Of a stretch of DNA of 48,531 nt, positions 20,236-45,470 are shown one piece after another (position 1 is the first letter of the stretch; every line of letters begins with the position of its first letter). The translations under genes and the position numbers were made by a program. Origin of the DNA: Candidatus Zipacnadum vermilionense (GTDB lineage: Bacteria > Armatimonadota > Zipacnadia > Zipacnadales > Zipacnadaceae). The notes under the pieces are model-generated. The model was not told where the DNA came from. It did no database searches and was given only the letters and a program-made list of their open reading frames with translations. The stretch spans positions 1 to 48,531 of the forward strand of contig JALGSV010000027.1 in the NCBI GenBank assembly GCA_029821755.1, written 5' to 3'.

Positions 20236-20267
20236 GCGGGGGCCGACCACCTGTCGGCCCCCGCTTT
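20236..20267 (+). terminator. Rho-independent terminator after hppA
   Basis: A perfect 12-bp stem, GCGGGGGCCGAC (20236-20247) with GTCGGCCCCCGC (20253-20264), encloses a five-base loop and is followed by TTT and a pyrimidine-rich stretch. It ends the rpiB-to-hppA run. Confidence 0.8.
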
Positions 20268-20315: not shown

Positions 20316-21101
20316 ATGCGCCATCTACTCTTGGTGGAGGATGACCACACACTGGCCGACTGTGCGCGGCGGTACCTGGAGGCGGCGGGGCACGGGGTCA
20401 GCCTAGCGTTGGATGCGGCGACCGCGTACCGACTTCTGGCCGGTCGGCGCTTCGACATGGTGATACTGGACCTGATGCTGCCGGACGGGGAGGGGCTGGA
20501 CCTGTGCCGGGAGATACGCGCCGACGGGCGGCTGCCGGTGCTGGTGACCTCTGCGCGGGGCGACGGCGCCGACCGCATGCTAGCGCTGGAGGCCGGGGCC
20601 GATATGTATCTACCGAAGCCCTTCGACCTGGAGGAACTAGCCGCCCGCGTAGTGGCGTGTCTGCGGCGGGGGGGAGCCGAAGGGGAGGAGGCAACGACCT
20701 GTGGCGACCTGCGCATGGACCCGGCCGCCCGGCTGGCGACTGTAGCCGGGCGGGAGCTGGCGCTCACGCCCAAAGAGTTCGAGCTGCTAGCCGCTCTGGC
20801 CGCAGCCGCCGGGCAGATCAAGCCGGGCAAGCAGTTGTTGTGGGAAGTCTGGGGCTACGCGGAGGGCATCCGCACCCGCACGCTGGACGTACATATCGCC
20901 CGCCTACGCCGGAAGCTGGCCGAGGCTGGGGCGTGGGAGTGCCGGATCGTGACCAAGGCGGGGGTGGGGTACGGAGTGGAAAGACACGAGACGCGAGTCA
21001 CGAGTCGCGAGTGGGGAGGGGACGGAGTCGGGCCACTTGAAGAAAGTGACGCGATCAGCGCCGAATGCGCTCCAGGGCAAGGCGTCCAAGCGAGGCGCTA
21101 G
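20316..21101 (+). CDS. OmpR-family response regulator with repeat-derived C-terminal tail
   Basis: 261 residues from ATG 20316. The receiver domain (1-115) has the acidic pair Asp9-Asp10, the phosphate acceptor Asp52 in MVILDLMLPD, Thr78 and Lys101 in LPKPFD. The winged-helix DNA-binding domain (about 127-222) has LTPKEFELLAALAAAAG, the recognition helix TLDVHIARLRRKLAEAG and the final GVGYGVE hairpin. This is where OmpR proteins normally stop. The last 39 residues are encoded by a heptamer-repeat unit and following sequence, so the original stop was probably lost. The partner kinase is not adjacent; the soluble kinase at 10763 is a candidate only because both are orphans on the same strand. 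Confidence 0.9.
   Translation: MRHLLLVEDDHTLADCARRYLEAAGHGVSLALDAATAYRLLAGRRFDMVILDLMLPDGEGLDLCREIRADGRLPVLVTSARGDGADRMLALEAGADMYLPKPFDLEELAARVVACLRRGGAEGEEATTCGDLRMDPAARLATVAGRELALTPKEFELLAALAAAAGQIKPGKQLLWEVWGYAEGIRTRTLDVHIARLRRKLAEAGAWECRIVTKAGVGYGVERHETRVTSREWGGDGVGPLEESDAISAECAPGQGVQARR
20983..21021 (+). repeat. Heptamer-repeat unit (GCGAGTC type), at the response regulator 3' end
   Basis: Degenerate copies of GCGAGTC run into a G-rich GGGGAGGGG tail. The unit lies in frame in the response regulator gene just after the codons for the conserved end of the DNA-binding domain and encodes part of its extra tail. Its inverted partner is at 21125-21165. Confidence 0.75.
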
Positions 21102-21124
21102 CGGTAACCGACCGCAAGATTCTA

Positions 21125-21165
21125 CACTCGCGACTCGCGACTCGCGACTCGCGACTTCCCCTCAC
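21125..21165 (-). repeat. Heptamer-repeat unit (GCGAGTC type), at the MBL gene stop codon
   Basis: Read on the minus strand, the unit begins at the TGA stop of the MBL gene: TGAGGGGAA is followed by four to five copies of GTCGCGA. It is inverted relative to the unit at 20983-21021. The two could pair in RNA to form a long hairpin between the convergent genes. Confidence 0.8.
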
Positions 21166-22562
21166 ACCTCGTCCCGCTCGCCCTGCGCGGGGACCACTAC
21201 CCGGTCGCCCAGAAGGTCCTGCAACAGCCCCTGGAGGGTTCGTAGGGAATCATCCTCGCCGTGTACCAGGAAGACCTGGCCGGTCGGACCGGCAACCTGC
21301 TCACCCCAGTGAACTAGGCCCGTCTGGTCGGCGTGGGCGGAGAAGCCCCCCAGGTGGACCACATCACACAGCACGGGGTGGACCGTCCCGAACAGTTCCA
21401 CCTCTTGGGCGCCGTCGACAATGTCCCGCCCCAGCGTGTCCTCAGCCTGGTAGCCTACGAAGAGCAGCGTGTCCTTAGGGTGCTCCAGGTGGTGGTGCAG
21501 ATGGTGGCGGATGCGCCCGCCGGTGCACATGCCACTGGCCGACAGGACGATGAAAGGCTCTTCCATGTCGTTGAGCGGCAGCGAATCGCGCATGGCGCGC
21601 AGGTAGTGCAGGCCGGGGAAGTCGAAGGGGCTGTCGCCGCGCTGGATAGCCTCTTGGATCTCCTCGTCGAAGATCTCAGTGTGCTGGCGGAAGACCTCGG
21701 TGGCTCGGAGGGCCATGGGACTGTCCGCGAAGATGGGAGCCGCGGGCAGTTCGTGGCGGCGCTCCGGGTCGCACAGGCAGTAGAGCACGTCCTGGGTGCG
21801 CCCGAGGGCAAAGGCAGGGATGATGACGTGCCCGCCCCGCTCCAGGGTTGTGCGGATGACGCTCAGGAATTTCTCCAGCGTCTCGTCCCACGGGTCGTGG
21901 AGGCGACCGCCATAGGTGCTCTCCAGAATGGCCACGTCAGCCGGTTCAGGCATCTGGGGGTCGCGGATGATGGGCCGACCATGCCGGCCCAGATCGCCGG
22001 AGAAGACCACCCGCCGGGTCTTGCCGTTCTCCGGGATCCACAGCTCCACTGAGGACGACCCCAGAATGTGCCCGGCGTCGAGGAAGCGGACCTGCACCTC
22101 CCCGGTGAGGGTGTACTTGGTGCCGTACTGGCAGGGGACGACCAACTGCAGGGAGCCCTGGGCCTCGCGGGAGGTATAGAGCGGTCCGGGGGGCTCGGGG
22201 CCTTCCTCACCCCGCCGTTTCCAGCGCTTGAGTTCCCAGCGGGCGTCCTCCTGCTGGATGGAGGCGCTATCGGTCCAGATCACGGCGACCAGGTCGCCGG
22301 TAGCGGCAGTGCAGTAGATGGACCCGCGGAAGCCCTCCCGGTAGAGTCGCGGCACTAGGCCACAGTGGTCCAGGTGGGCATGGGTGAGGATGATGAAGTC
22401 CAGGGAGGCCGGATCGTAGGACAACTCCCGGCGGTTAATCTCATCCCGGTCATCGCGCCCCTGGAAGAGGCCGCACTCCACCAGGAAGCGGGCCGACTCC
22501 GTCTCCACCAGGTACTGCGAACCGGTGACGCACTGGGCGCCACCCTCAAAGGTGATATGCAT
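21162..22562 (-). CDS. Beta-CASP metallo-beta-lactamase fold protein (Ysh1/RNA exonuclease-like)
   Basis: 466 residues, typical of the bacterial COG1236-type MBL/beta-CASP proteins thought to process RNA. The zinc motif THAHLDHCG gives His61, His63, Asp65 and His66. Later ligands sit in LDAGHILGSSSVEL and VVFSGDLGRHGRPI (motif 4 Asp). The beta-CASP insertion starts about residue 240 with VIIPAFALGRTQDVL and contains FADSPMAL and IVLSASGMCTGGRI. The C-terminal motif is LGGFSAHADQTGL, with QVFLVHGE after it. The start has GAGGAA upstream. An exonuclease or endonuclease role on RNA is inferred from the family. The stop codon is the first triplet of a heptamer-repeat unit. Confidence 0.9.
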   Translation of the reverse strand: MHITFEGGAQCVTGSQYLVETESARFLVECGLFQGRDDRDEINRRELSYDPASLDFIILTHAHLDHCGLVPRLYREGFRGSIYCTAATGDLVAVIWTDSASIQQEDARWELKRWKRRGEEGPEPPGPLYTSREAQGSLQLVVPCQYGTKYTLTGEVQVRFLDAGHILGSSSVELWIPENGKTRRVVFSGDLGRHGRPIIRDPQMPEPADVAILESTYGGRLHDPWDETLEKFLSVIRTTLERGGHVIIPAFALGRTQDVLYCLCDPERRHELPAAPIFADSPMALRATEVFRQHTEIFDEEIQEAIQRGDSPFDFPGLHYLRAMRDSLPLNDMEEPFIVLSASGMCTGGRIRHHLHHHLEHPKDTLLFVGYQAEDTLGRDIVDGAQEVELFGTVHPVLCDVVHLGGFSAHADQTGLVHWGEQVAGPTGQVFLVHGEDDSLRTLQGLLQDLLGDRVVVPAQGERDEV

Positions 22563-22591: not shown

Positions 22592-22640
22592 GGGGGGGGG
22601 AGGGGAATTGATGATTGACAATTGATGATTGATGAATAGG
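22592..22640 (+). repeat. Heptamer-repeat unit (ATTGATG type), left arm
   Basis: A run of G with one A, then GGGGAA and repeated ATTGATG-type heptamers. It lies between the MBL start and the next minus-strand gene and is an inverted partner of 22672-22724. Confidence 0.75.
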
Positions 22641-22671
22641 AGAGGGAGACAGAGACCAAGGGGACCCGTCT

Positions 22672-22724
22672 CCCTTCCCCAATCATCATTCATCGATTAT
22701 AGGTCATCAATTCCCCCCTCACCC
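22672..22724 (-). repeat. Heptamer-repeat unit (ATTGATG type), at a stop codon
   Basis: On the minus strand the unit starts at the TGA stop of the LOG-like gene (22719-22721): TGAGGGGGGAA is followed by degenerate ATTGATG heptamers and a GGGGAAGGG end. With the unit at 22592-22640 it forms an imperfect inverted repeat in the mRNA between two minus-strand genes. Confidence 0.75.
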
Positions 22725-23297
22725 GTCCGCCTCGGGCGGCAGGTGGGCAGTGCCGGCCTCCATGCGCCGCTGGAAAGCCTCCAGCAGGCGCTGGATGAGG
22801 ACCTCCGGGTCCCGCTCGTAGATGATCTCGGCGCGGGTGGACTTGTTGATGATGCGGACCACCTCTTGCAGGTGGTCCGCGATGCCGCCGGTGCCCTCCA
22901 GGATTCCAATCAGCTTGCCCTCGTCGTAGGCGATGGCGAACTCGCCCAGCGTTCCGGAGCGCCCCCCTACGATGACGACGACATCGCAGGAGCGGATGTT
23001 GGTGATCTCACGCCCCATCAGGCCGGAGCCGGTGTAGATGATGGCGTCGTACTCCTGGTGGGGAGAGTGGTAGCGAACGATGTGCTCGTCGAGGGAGAGA
23101 GCGGGGGAGACGCCGATGACCAGGCCGCCCTCGCTATTGGCCCCCAGGACTGCCTCGTGGGGCAGGCCGGGACAGGCGCCGGTAAGCAGGACGCAGTCAT
23201 GTTGGGCAATGCACTGGCCCAGGCGGTAGCAGTCGTGAAGCACCTCGGCCTTCAGGACCCCACCGGCGGATCCCATGACACCAATCTGGGTACGCAT
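22719..23297 (-). CDS. LOG/lysine decarboxylase-like Rossmann protein (TIGR00725-type)
   Basis: 192 residues. The fold is that of the LOG/MoCo-carrier family of nucleotide-binding proteins: MRTQIGVMGSAGG at the start, LLTGACPGLPHEAVLGA at about 38-54 and VVVIVGGRSGTLGEFAIAYDEGKLIG at about 107-132. The last matches the PGGxGTxxE phosphoribose-binding motif in loose form (GGRSGTLGE). LOG proteins release cytokinin-like bases from nucleoside monophosphates, but many bacterial members of this subgroup have no proven activity. The ATG has AGGAG ten bases upstream. The gene ends in a heptamer-repeat unit and is followed by the MBL gene on the same strand. Confidence 0.8.
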   Translation of the reverse strand: MRTQIGVMGSAGGVLKAEVLHDCYRLGQCIAQHDCVLLTGACPGLPHEAVLGANSEGGLVIGVSPALSLDEHIVRYHSPHQEYDAIIYTGSGLMGREITNIRSCDVVVIVGGRSGTLGEFAIAYDEGKLIGILEGTGGIADHLQEVVRIINKSTRAEIIYERDPEVLIQRLLEAFQRRMEAGTAHLPPEADG

Positions 23298-27468: not shown

Positions 27469-27474
27469 CGTCCC

Positions 27475-27533
27475 CGTGGGGCGGGCTTGCTGGCCCGCGC
27501 TCTCAGAGGGCGGGCCTGCAAGCCCGCCCCACG
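27475..27533. repeat. REP-like palindrome, family B
   Basis: A 16-bp perfect inverted repeat: CGTGGGGCGGGCTTGC (27475-27490) and its complement at 27518-27533, plus an inner GGCCCGC (27492-27498)/GCGGGCC (27510-27516). It sits between the MoxR and DUF58 genes. A related palindrome with a GGGCTTTCTAGCCCGC core lies at 37263-37339. Confidence 0.75.
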
Positions 27534-27561
27534 CGGAGGGGCCCGCGGAGTCGAATCCATC

Positions 27562-36106: not shown

Positions 36107-36111
<5 letters not shown>

Positions 36112-36154
36112 GGGCGGCTTTCGCACGGTCCGTCGTGCGACAGCCGCCCCTACA
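36107..36154. repeat. REP-like palindrome, family A, across the lptB stop codon
   Basis: TGTAGGGGCGGCT (36107-36119) and AGCCGCCCCTACA (36142-36154) are perfect 13-bp inverted arms; TCGCACG (36121-36127) and CGTGCGA (36134-36140) extend the stem. The lptB stop codon (36109-36111) lies in the left arm. It may limit read-through to the permease gene or stabilise mRNA. The arms match the element at 1384-1437. Confidence 0.8.
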
Positions 36155-37253: not shown

Positions 37254-37262
37254 GGACTCTCC

Positions 37263-37339
37263 CGCGGGGGGCGGGCTTTCTAGCCCGCCCTCTCCGAAGT
37301 GCCGGCCGGGGGAGCGCGGGCTAGAAAGCCCTCGCCACG
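37263..37339. repeat. REP-like palindrome, family B
   Basis: The 16-bp core GGGCTTTCTAGCCCGC (37273-37288) has a perfect inverted complement at 37316-37331, with imperfect matches extending outward. It is located between the LptF/G gene and the DUF3084 gene. Related to 27475-27533. Confidence 0.75.
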
Positions 37340-37372
37340 CGGAACGCGCCCACCGACTCGCGCTACGCGAAT

Positions 37373-40783: not shown

Positions 40784-40839
40784 GAAGCACCGCTCAGTCA
40801 TCCACCCTCGCTCCCCCCTCGACCGTCGACTCTCGACTA
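40784..40839 (-). repeat. Heptamer-repeat unit (GTCGAGA type), at a stop codon
   Basis: Read on the minus strand, the unit starts at the TAG stop of the 173-residue gene: TAG then TCGAGAG, TCGACGG, TCGAGG and a GGGGGAG tail; a further GGGGGG-type tract follows near 40784. Only a single unit is found here, without a clear inverted partner. Confidence 0.6.
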
Positions 40840-41358
40840 GCCACCATTACTCTCCGTGCGCGTGTAGTGTTTGATCGCGTACTGGATGCCGCGCTGGAGC
40901 TCACCGGTGGTGATGCGGCCGCCGAGGAACTCGGCCTGGAGCAGTTTATTGAGCTGGGCAAACAGCTCGCTGCGACTCATGCCTTGCTCCACCCACAGGC
41001 CAATCTGCTCCTGCAGTTGCCGCTCCCGCTTGCCGGGGATGGTTCGCACATGCTCCTCGACCGCGTGCAGCACTTCGACGGGGTCGCAGGACTCTACCTT
41101 GCACTCCAGGTCAGCGCTAAGGTAGCTGAAGGACTTGGTCTGGGGGTCGTAGGTGACATTGAGCTGCGTCGTGGACCCCCCGGGGGTCTCGTAGATAATG
41201 GCGACATTGGTAGCCCCCTCGCCCCGGCGCCACCGGGAGTACTCGTGACGAAGGTTCCCGTAGCCGATACGGCGCTCGGGATTGCTGCAGCAGGCACGGA
41301 CCGCCGCGTCCAGATGCTCCTGGAACCACTCCATGGGATCGGAAACTTCCGGATCCAC
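40837..41358 (-). CDS. Conserved-looking protein of unknown function
   Basis: 173 residues from the GTG at 41358, which lies six bases after a GGAGGT (41365-41370). The ATG at 41364 would be almost inside that ribosome site, and the frame extends back to 41448 without support. The sequence is mostly charged: the first half has a beta-type stretch with TNVAIIYETPGGSTTQLNVTYD, followed by helices rich in Glu, Gln and Lys. There is no signal peptide and no membrane helix. Several Cys occur in the first half (RACCSNPERR, then KVESCD). I recognise no domain. It lies between the DUF4432 and DUF169 genes on the same strand. Confidence 0.65.
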   Translation of the reverse strand: MDPEVSDPMEWFQEHLDAAVRACCSNPERRIGYGNLRHEYSRWRRGEGATNVAIIYETPGGSTTQLNVTYDPQTKSFSYLSADLECKVESCDPVEVLHAVEEHVRTIPGKRERQLQEQIGLWVEQGMSRSELFAQLNKLLQAEFLGGRITTGELQRGIQYAIKHYTRTESNGG

Positions 41359-43653: not shown

Positions 43654-45470
43654 CCAAGGATTCTCCCCAGTCCAGCGCCGTGACCTTTCTCGGGCCGGGA
43701 GTCGAGAGCCGTCCCGGCGTGCCGCTGGTCGCCAACCTGCGGTCGGTCGAGTTAGGCGACCATCCGGTCCTGGCCGCCCTGCGCGGGGAGACCAGCCGGA
43801 TCGCCCGGGAGGCGCTGGGCTACGCCCAGGCTCTCGCCTCCGCCCTGCCCGAGGAGTTGGCCGCTCGCCCTGCTCCCGATCTGCCCTCCCTGTGGGAATG
43901 CTTCCAGTGCGAATTTGCCCGCCACAGCCTGGCGCCGGCGCTGATGAACCTGGAGCTGGCGCAGGCTGCCGGGGACGGCCAGCCGGACGCCCGAGCGCGG
44001 CTGGTGGAGCGACGCAACGGGGCTTGGTGGCTGGGTGGCAGCGGGGCGCGGGAGGTCGTACGCGAGGTCGGGGGCCTGGCCCCGGGGGCACCGGTGCTCT
44101 CCTCGGTCTGGTGGCGCAATCGATTGCTACCTTATCTGGCCCGGCGCGCACCGCGCCCTTCGGACCCGTGCGCCTCGTGCCCACCATGGGAGGACCGAGC
44201 GCGTTCCCCCGAGTCCTGCGACGTACTGTTCCTGGGCGTGGCCGCCACCACCGCCCCGCTTATCGCCCACCTTGCCCGCGGCCTGGAGGCGGAGGGCCTG
44301 CGCTGTCTGACCGTAGACTTCCACTACGAGAACTCCACCCGCGCCTTGCGCGAGGTCGGGGTGCGAATACTCGACGGGCGACCGGAACTGAACGGCGGGC
44401 AGGAAGCCGCTCGGCACCTCCGGAGGCGCTTCCACTCGCTGCGCCGCCGGGCGGTGGCCGGCATACATGAGCAAGTGCGGAGAGGGGAACTTCCGGCCTG
44501 GCTGGAGTCGTTCGTCCAGACGCGGATCACCGTCGCGCTGGGCCGGGACCTGCCGGCGATGGCGGCCTACCGCGCCGCCGCGGCAGGGATTCTCGACGCC
44601 ACCGGCCCACGTCTGGTGGTAGGCTTTCACCTCTCGCCGGACTTTCTCGCGCCGCTACTGCTCGGCGCCCAGTTGCGCGGAACGGCCACGGTCTGCGCGC
44701 AGCACGGCATCCGCGGACCGGTCCACCGCAATGGCGTCGCCCTCCCCTGGGACTATCTCCTGGCCTGGGGACAGTACACTGTGGACGTCAACCAAGGCCT
44801 GACTGACGAGCACTCCCGCTGGGTGGTAACAGGGAACTGCCTGTACGACGGGGAATCGCGAGTCGCGAGTCGCGAGTCGCAAGTGCGGAGGGGAGGGGAG
44901 GTCGGTGGAGGCCCGGCGGGCCGGATCGTGCTCGCCGCCACGCAGACTGATGAGGCACAGGTCAAGGCCAGCCAGCCGCGCTGGTGGCTGCGAGGGGTCG
45001 CCGAGGCCTGCCGGGCCCTGGGGGCGCGGCTGCTTATCCAGACCCACCCGGCGGAGACAGTCCTGGGCATGTACGAGAAGTTGGCGGCAGACCTCCCGGC
45101 AACGGTGCAGCTACCGGCGGCGGGGGAAAGAGCCCGAGGAGTAGGCGAGATGGAGGTCCTGGTAACGCGCGACTCGACGGTGGTCTACGAGGCCGCGCTG
45201 GCGGGCAAGCCGGCGCTGGCGATAGCCCTGCCGCCATATCGGCCGCGCTTTCCGCTGGCGGAGCACGGCGGCGCGATCGGGGTCAGCGCTTACGAAGAGA
45301 TCGAGCCAGCGTTGCAGGATGCTCTCAGCGACGGCCCTCGGACCCAGGAACTCGTCCGCAAGAGGCCGGAGTTCCTGCAATACCACCTCGGGCCCCAGGA
45401 CCACCGCGCTACGGAGCGCACCCTCGTGATGCTGCGAGAGGCGGCCGCGCACTCGCCGGCGCCCGGCTAG
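43650..45470 (+). CDS. GT-B-like protein, possibly surface carbohydrate biosynthesis, with in-frame repeat insertion
   Basis: 606 residues. The TTG at 43650 overlaps the dinB stop and has AGAGAGGA six bases upstream. The first 170 residues match nothing I recognise. From about 195 there is a Rossmann-like start (CDVLFLGVAATTAPLIAHLARGLEAEG). At about 355 the motif TVCAQHGIRGP and at about 390 WVVTGNCLYDG resemble the QHG and VTGxPxxD sites of capsule-type GT-B enzymes. From about 490 comes TRDSTVVYEAALAGKPALAI, like the nucleotide-sugar-binding end of that fold. Between the last two blocks, residues about 401-417 are encoded by a heptamer-repeat unit. The specific reaction is unknown. Confidence 0.65.
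   Translation: MTKDSPQSSAVTFLGPGVESRPGVPLVANLRSVELGDHPVLAALRGETSRIAREALGYAQALASALPEELAARPAPDLPSLWECFQCEFARHSLAPALMNLELAQAAGDGQPDARARLVERRNGAWWLGGSGAREVVREVGGLAPGAPVLSSVWWRNRLLPYLARRAPRPSDPCASCPPWEDRARSPESCDVLFLGVAATTAPLIAHLARGLEAEGLRCLTVDFHYENSTRALREVGVRILDGRPELNGGQEAARHLRRRFHSLRRRAVAGIHEQVRRGELPAWLESFVQTRITVALGRDLPAMAAYRAAAAGILDATGPRLVVGFHLSPDFLAPLLLGAQLRGTATVCAQHGIRGPVHRNGVALPWDYLLAWGQYTVDVNQGLTDEHSRWVVTGNCLYDGESRVASRESQVRRGGEVGGGPAGRIVLAATQTDEAQVKASQPRWWLRGVAEACRALGARLLIQTHPAETVLGMYEKLAADLPATVQLPAAGERARGVGEMEVLVTRDSTVVYEAALAGKPALAIALPPYRPRFPLAEHGGAIGVSAYEEIEPALQDALSDGPRTQELVRKRPEFLQYHLGPQDHRATERTLVMLREAAAHSPAPG
44850..44901 (+). repeat. Heptamer-repeat unit (TCGCGAG type) inside a coding gene
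   Basis: GGGGAA, then three TCGCGAG copies and one TCGCAAG, followed by TGCGGAGGGGAGGGG. The unit is translated in frame as part of the GT-B-like protein, just after its VTGNCLYDG motif. Confidence 0.8.

Follow-up and report, generated by a model that had tools for sequence, protein, structure and literature searches.

Many bacteria carry an excess of heptamer repeats, and we know of no explanation for the unit of seven or for its occurrence at gene ends. REP/BIME palindromes, too, are short intergenic elements often located at gene ends; they are associated with RAYT and may act as terminators or mRNA protectors. Unlike the arrays described here, these palindromes have a fixed sequence and no heptamer period, and a RAYT-like gene of the present genome stands between palindromes that form a family of their own. 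Among tandem heptamers, the dispersed G-rich repeats described by Rehm et al. 2015 (PMC4692102), GGGNATC in Xanthomonas and GGGGA(C/T)T in Nostoc, are mostly intergenic and lie at most 50 bp from stop codons on the coding strand, some of them overlapping the stop; they form 70-75 convergent inverted close pairs per Xanthomonas genome, and their positions are mostly kept between two related species. The same paper cites a report on cyanobacterial STRR heptanucleotides in Calothrix, which share with our arrays the dispersal of tandem seven-base units within one genome but belong to another lineage and are not described, as cited there, with respect to gene ends. The initial annotation had pointed to these STRRs; the link was apt, but the Xanthomonas GGGAATC arrays are the closest published case. 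Self-pairing heptanucleotide repeats (TDNGATT or NNTGAGT) also build the P6b stem of the Nostoc tRNA-Leu(UAA) group I intron, in which the repeat class was replaced and the structure retained (PMC4476775). GAGTNNT words in hairpins of a genome from the same phylum as ours (G049) match the NNTGAGT class, but P6b lies inside an intron with an RNA function, whereas our hairpins stand at gene ends. Finally, the TAACTGA repeats of marine Beggiatoaceae (MacGregor 2015, PMC4679880) are intergenic direct heptamers with a patchy distribution across phyla; in contrast to the present arrays they consist of a single word, lie mostly just upstream of start codons and have nearly no inverted copies.

We analysed a stretch of 48,531 nucleotides (hereafter the window, 67% GC) from the genome of Candidatus Zipacnadum vermilionense (4.39 Mb, 115 contigs). 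Its arrays resemble the heptamers of Rehm et al. in their tandem 7-nt units, dispersal, mostly intergenic location, stop-proximal position on the sense strand and convergent inverted pairs, and the heptamer class with these last three properties is thus already known (PMC4692102). They are unlike the Xanthomonas GGGNATC subtype in that GTCGCGA has no GGG tract, which is confined to the caps, and does not conform to a four-tract G-quadruplex motif. Two further differences from the heptamers of Rehm et al. are new as far as the literature was searched, namely the many word families with common GGGGA caps in one genome and the locus-specific, mirrored paired stems, with loops common to loci within each of two related genomes. 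To the same extent, novelty also applies to the word GTCGCGA, to the rewriting of a gene segment by an array and to hairpins that, in several genomes, fit exactly from stop to stop.

Mirror-image arrays between convergent genes

Two mirror-image heptamer arrays lie between a response regulator (RR) gene and a convergent metallo-beta-lactamase (MBL) gene. The RR ORF (20316..21101, plus strand) matches Pfam Response_reg and Trans_reg_C; the MBL ORF (21162..22562, minus strand, TGA at 21162-21164) was assigned by Pfam to the beta-CASP group of RNA-specificity type. Arm 1 (20976..21022, plus strand) is G-rich on the RR coding strand and consists of GTGGAAA, GACACGA, GACGCGA, GTCACGA, GTCGCGA and GTGGGGA followed by GGGGA. 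Arm 2 (21125..21161, minus strand) is G-rich on the MBL coding strand and follows the scheme GGGGAA(GTCGCGA)n, with four identical units and a terminal GTG; its TRF score was 100%, and there are two exact period-7 runs of its length in the window. Its GGGGA cap (21157-21161) directly adjoins the MBL TGA, with a gap of 0, and its inner end (GTGTAGAATC) carries no cap. The arms are separated by about 102 nt (21023..21124), a spacer that holds small internal hairpins and the present RR stop. Complementarity of the two arms extends over 36 bp with few mismatches and exceeded that of all 200 shuffles. The RNA of the RR–MBL interval was predicted to fold at -93.8 kcal/mol (z -4.72), with the arm pair as its dominant stem.

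The RR reading frame stays open across arm 1 and through the spacer up to a TAG at 21099-21101, because GTCGCGA arrays contain no stop codon in any frame (7 is not a multiple of 3, so that all phases are read). As a result, 41 residues (221-261) follow the conserved GVGYG end, of which about 15 are encoded by the array and the remainder by the spacer. In a same-genus homologue of 234 aa, 13 residues follow GVGYG, giving a net gain of about 28 here. These results largely bear out the initial annotation, which had described inverted heptamer units with G-rich borders at the ends of both genes, the right one starting at the MBL TGA, and RNA able to fold on itself. Its left unit (20983-21021), correctly recognised as read through by the RR gene, in fact starts one heptamer earlier, at GTGGAAA (20976). 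The borders assigned to both units are present, but in arm 2 the clean GGGGAA cap is found at the stop side alone. Similarly, the extension of RR stands, but the 39 residues credited to it had included the spacer.

The same-genus genome (G001) that provided this homologue displays the same gene order, with an H+-pyrophosphatase gene, RR and the convergent MBL, and its RR–MBL interval is devoid of the array. The MBL homologue ends with GAGGTC-TGA, compared to GAGGTG-TGA here, and its TGA, located at the same place, is followed by non-array sequence; the MBL C-terminus is unchanged and the array begins right after the stop. By hand count from the sequence, GVGYG and the MBL stop are separated by about 102 nt in G001 and 188 nt here, which makes the interval of the relative about 86 nt shorter.

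The window contains further arrays. A second heptamer hairpin (22601..22717, minus strand), made of ATTGATG-type words with GGGGA caps, starts 2 nt past the stop of a SLOG-family gene (22719-23297) and ends 38 nt before the MBL start, occupying much of this gap. It forms a near-continuous 117-nt stem (fold z -9.6) and is the best inverted pair in the window, stronger and better preserved than the RR–MBL pair. By eye its loop suggested homology with that of the G049 hairpins, an assignment that was rejected as the covariance model described below gave no match. A weaker array (40804..40846, minus strand) overlaps a TAG stop on the sense strand. A GTCGCGA array (44849..44896, plus strand) lies in frame inside a gene (43680-45470) for a protein of 596 residues with no Pfam match, at an inter-domain linker. 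Five relatives have 22-24 residues at this site, between two conserved regions, and the present protein has about 24, made by the array. In this comparison, the array has overwritten the linker without lengthening the protein, which simple insertion hardly explains. Heptamer arrays also alter protein sequences in two ways, by read-through into new C-terminal tails and by the rewriting of an inter-domain linker, and they need to be considered both in gene calling and in work on 3' ends. An Rfam search of the window returned no known RNA family. Other intergenic palindromes lie at about 27471-27537, 37262-37342 and 36107-36154; the first two belong to a TCCGCGTGGGGCGGGCTTTCTAGCCCGC...GCGGGCTAGAAAGCCCGCCCCACGCGGA family that is common in this genome.

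Position of the arrays relative to stop codons

The exact string CGCGACTCGCGACTC, which contains at least two GTCGCGA units, occurs at 7 loci in the whole genome. A broader census was performed on stretches amounting to 1.24 Mb (28% of the genome), in which genes were called with a self-written program based on codon usage and trained on these stretches. With a threshold of at least 19 matching positions out of 28, we found 49 segments of period 7, compared to 3-9 for periods 4, 8, 10, 11, 13, 16 and 17, and 17 for period 5. Raising the threshold to 21/28 left 15 segments of period 7 and 0-1 for the other periods. Thirty-six of the 49 arrays are intergenic. The exact word GTCGCGA is common to 11 arrays and GTGGAAG to 5, the remaining words being of ATTGATG, ATCGATA and GACTTCA types; to our knowledge, the words of cyanobacterial STRRs differ from these. 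Exact identity was the sole measure used to compare words, since clustering at one mismatch proved uninformative, a random control clustering equally well. GGGGA-type caps at one or both ends are found at unlinked loci and are clearest in the GTCGCGA group. The Xanthomonas-type word GGGAATC is also present in this genome, at G000:C55:2697-2729 (GGGGAATCGGGAATCGGGGGGGGGAATCGGGGA).

Inverted second copies were detected within 250 bp for 10 of the 49 array rows, corresponding to about 7 loci, and a search over the same distance yielded no significant partner in direct orientation. The matrix of arm pairings is partly circular because the arms were selected by complementarity; of the eight pairs, just three emerged independently on both sides.

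Arrays favour the bases at or just after stop codons, with their G-rich strand as the coding strand. Half of the intergenic arrays (18/36) begin from 30 nt before to 15 nt after a stop located on the G-rich strand of the array, compared to 10.1% of random intergenic segments (Fisher p 2.4e-9) and 11.6% of intergenic segments that are as G-rich but not periodic (Fisher p 2.6e-8). The association was far weaker for segments of other periods. It is also oriented, with 18 arrays at a sense stop versus 5 at a convergent stop (p 0.01); convergent stops at the opposite array end (14% versus 9-11% in controls) were not clearly enriched. The bias was weak for the 15 arrays that pass the 21/28 threshold, the strongest ones, with 2 of 9 intergenic ones, and likewise in a limited set drawn from three further genomes, where 5 of 24 intergenic single arrays abut a sense stop. 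All three stop codons occur at array starts, and several arrays themselves appear to supply the stop, as in GGGGA-TAG-TCGCGA and ATCGA-TAA-ATGATAATCG. The check proposed in the initial annotation, for many copies at stop codons when compared with a null expectation, came out positive in this genome, as it does for the hairpins of related genomes described below.

One could propose that slippage arrays arise anywhere and merely survive after stops, as the least harmful place. Expansion of low-complexity sequence is a known mutational process, and the predominance of intergenic arrays fits such tolerance. By itself, however, tolerance leaves the sense-strand bias unexplained, it would place arrays anywhere in an interval rather than within 15 nt of a stop, and it accounts neither for shared words nor for mirrored arms. 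As a complete explanation we consider it very improbable.

Hairpins in related genomes

In G049 many arrays are organised as hairpins whose two arms display the same ordered series of heptamer variants, the series differing from locus to locus. The loops are alike (GGAAG.CCAAAGG ... TGGTTTCC) and 42-48 nt long in most cases, and the stems are unlike (shared-loop hairpins L154, L159, L164, L182, L186, L230-L232, L234-L236 and L239). A second relative, G061, mostly carries its own loop, of GGCCGAAG type, on other heptamer stems (L240-L246), and 4 of its 7 hairpins span two convergent stops within 20 nt. A covariance model (R1) built from three G049 hairpins gave matches in 15 of the 20 genomes tried (E up to 1), with 49 in G049, 28 in G061 and 25 in G047, many of them being one hairpin matched on both strands. 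The present genome showed one weak match (E 0.018). In the window the best match (E 4.6) lay away from the RR–MBL locus, and the RR–MBL pair did not group with the shared-loop hairpins of G049.

We assembled a set of 40 hairpins from 11 genomes, picked by structure and not by gene position. Of the 39 that come from other genomes, 24 are found no more than 20 nt from a sense stop, and in 7 the ends come within 20 nt of the stops of two convergent genes, so that the arrangement seen between RR and MBL recurs in several genomes. Stem pairs are 94% Watson-Crick. Pairing between arms of the same locus reached 93-99%, a value inflated in part because the hairpins were chosen by complementarity, versus 33-38% between arms of different loci compared in the same register. 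Mismatches read in sense orientation comprise, in small numbers, 16 G-U and 14 A-C. Selection for RNA pairing would favour G-U, and the near equality of the two classes thus does not support selection at the RNA level; it is the pattern expected of mutation or copying at the DNA level.

Taken together, hairpins and arrays could belong to a phylum-wide, so far undescribed family of intergenic stop-codon hairpins, with a lineage-conserved loop, a heptamer stem of about 30 bp rewritten at each locus, arms mirrored by DNA-level copying and, often, a size that fills the gap between convergent stops. We put forward this broader reading tentatively, as one that may well not hold in full.

The stem between RR and MBL also raised the question of a functional 3'-end element under selection, a bidirectional terminator-like or exonuclease-blocking stem-loop shared by the two genes. 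A scan for intrinsic terminators (GC-rich stem followed by a T run) found none formed by the arms, which lack a U-tract. No normal terminator was found for RR or MBL except a weak match of 5 pairs at 21062-21048; the gene upstream carries a classical one (20236-20264). A 3'-end role would suit this situation, the dominance of the arm pair in an interval that folds far better than shuffles, and the convergent stops spanned by hairpins in G061. Yet the 36 intergenic arrays have a median fold z of -0.77, close to the -0.57 of 100 control windows taken after stops, and a general RNA-structure function was rejected as a class property on this ground: a class whose single arrays do not surpass ordinary post-stop sequence in folding cannot have stem formation as its function. 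The mismatch pattern and the absence of arrays from the RR–MBL interval of the same-genus relative also speak against a selected 3'-end element, which we judge unlikely, although the RR–MBL pair itself may act as a terminator.

Origin and spread of the arrays

A 21-mer spanning a heptamer junction (GTCGCGAGTCGCGAGTGGGGA) was searched for, by sequence alone, in 84,980 named species genomes, a collection that may omit records near the window's own genome, and was found in 2: one Bacteroidetes MAG and one Phycisphaerales MAG (L063, 4429-4449, minus strand; L064, 6857-6877, plus strand). Both foreign arrays begin directly at the TGA of the upstream gene, on the sense strand. We take one of these upstream genes, from its sequence, to encode a nicotinate-nucleotide pyrophosphorylase-like protein.

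This scattered presence in other phyla could reflect insertion of a small MITE- or REP-like mobile element at stops or next to them, with mobilisation by an enzyme encoded elsewhere in the genome. Words and caps common to unlinked loci, the empty interval of the same-genus relative and the similar loops within G049 and within G061 would all be accounted for in this way. Of the features of a MITE, inverted arms are present, but lengths vary, the ends are not fixed, the number of units changes and no target-site duplication was seen by eye; in addition, the copy inside a gene did not lengthen it. No linked transposase was found either. We looked for REP/RAYT pairs at the loci of five Y1_Tnp matches in this genome and detected no period-7 array in these loci, which extend at most 1.5 kb to each side; spread by RAYT was accordingly rejected as a candidate. 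The mobile or self-spreading unit suggested by the initial annotation failed to gain support, and we hold a MITE- or REP-like element mobilised in this way to be quite improbable.

The explanation that we favour, and regard as fairly probable, is a dispersed heptamer repeat of the STRR or G-rich heptameric SSR class, found here in its paired form between convergent genes and produced by slippage and arm copying. Arrays would grow and shrink through slippage, and a second arm would arise, and the arms would stay alike, by fold-back or template-switch copying of DNA. Both would be tolerated or favoured mainly where translation has just ended. A transcription-linked origin, in which the G-rich non-template strand is exposed after the ribosome has left, would be in line with the strand bias. 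At the RR–MBL locus, read-through transcripts of both genes would end in the 36-bp stem, which could terminate or protect them. Slippage combined with fold-back or template switching is preferred on the basis of the folding of single arrays, the mismatch pattern and the contrast between own-locus and cross-locus pairing. Counting against it is the replacement of the linker inside a gene, which simple slippage growth does not predict. The loops that are alike within G049 and within G061 on different stems point to the spread of a defined element beyond local growth, and exact words common to unlinked loci and to different phyla need some dispersal. The data nevertheless give testable statements: a preference for the post-stop coding strand, arms mirrored locus by locus, and mismatches that point to DNA copying.

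One of the Y1_Tnp matches, at G000:C71:182866-183048 (L146), is RAYT-like and lies just below the Pfam cut-off. It is flanked by palindromes of the TCCGCGTGGGGCGGGCTTTCTAGCCCGC...GCGGGCTAGAAAGCCCGCCCCACGCGGA family at about 182594-182672 and 183207-183285 of the same contig, and likely forms a REP/RAYT pair with them.
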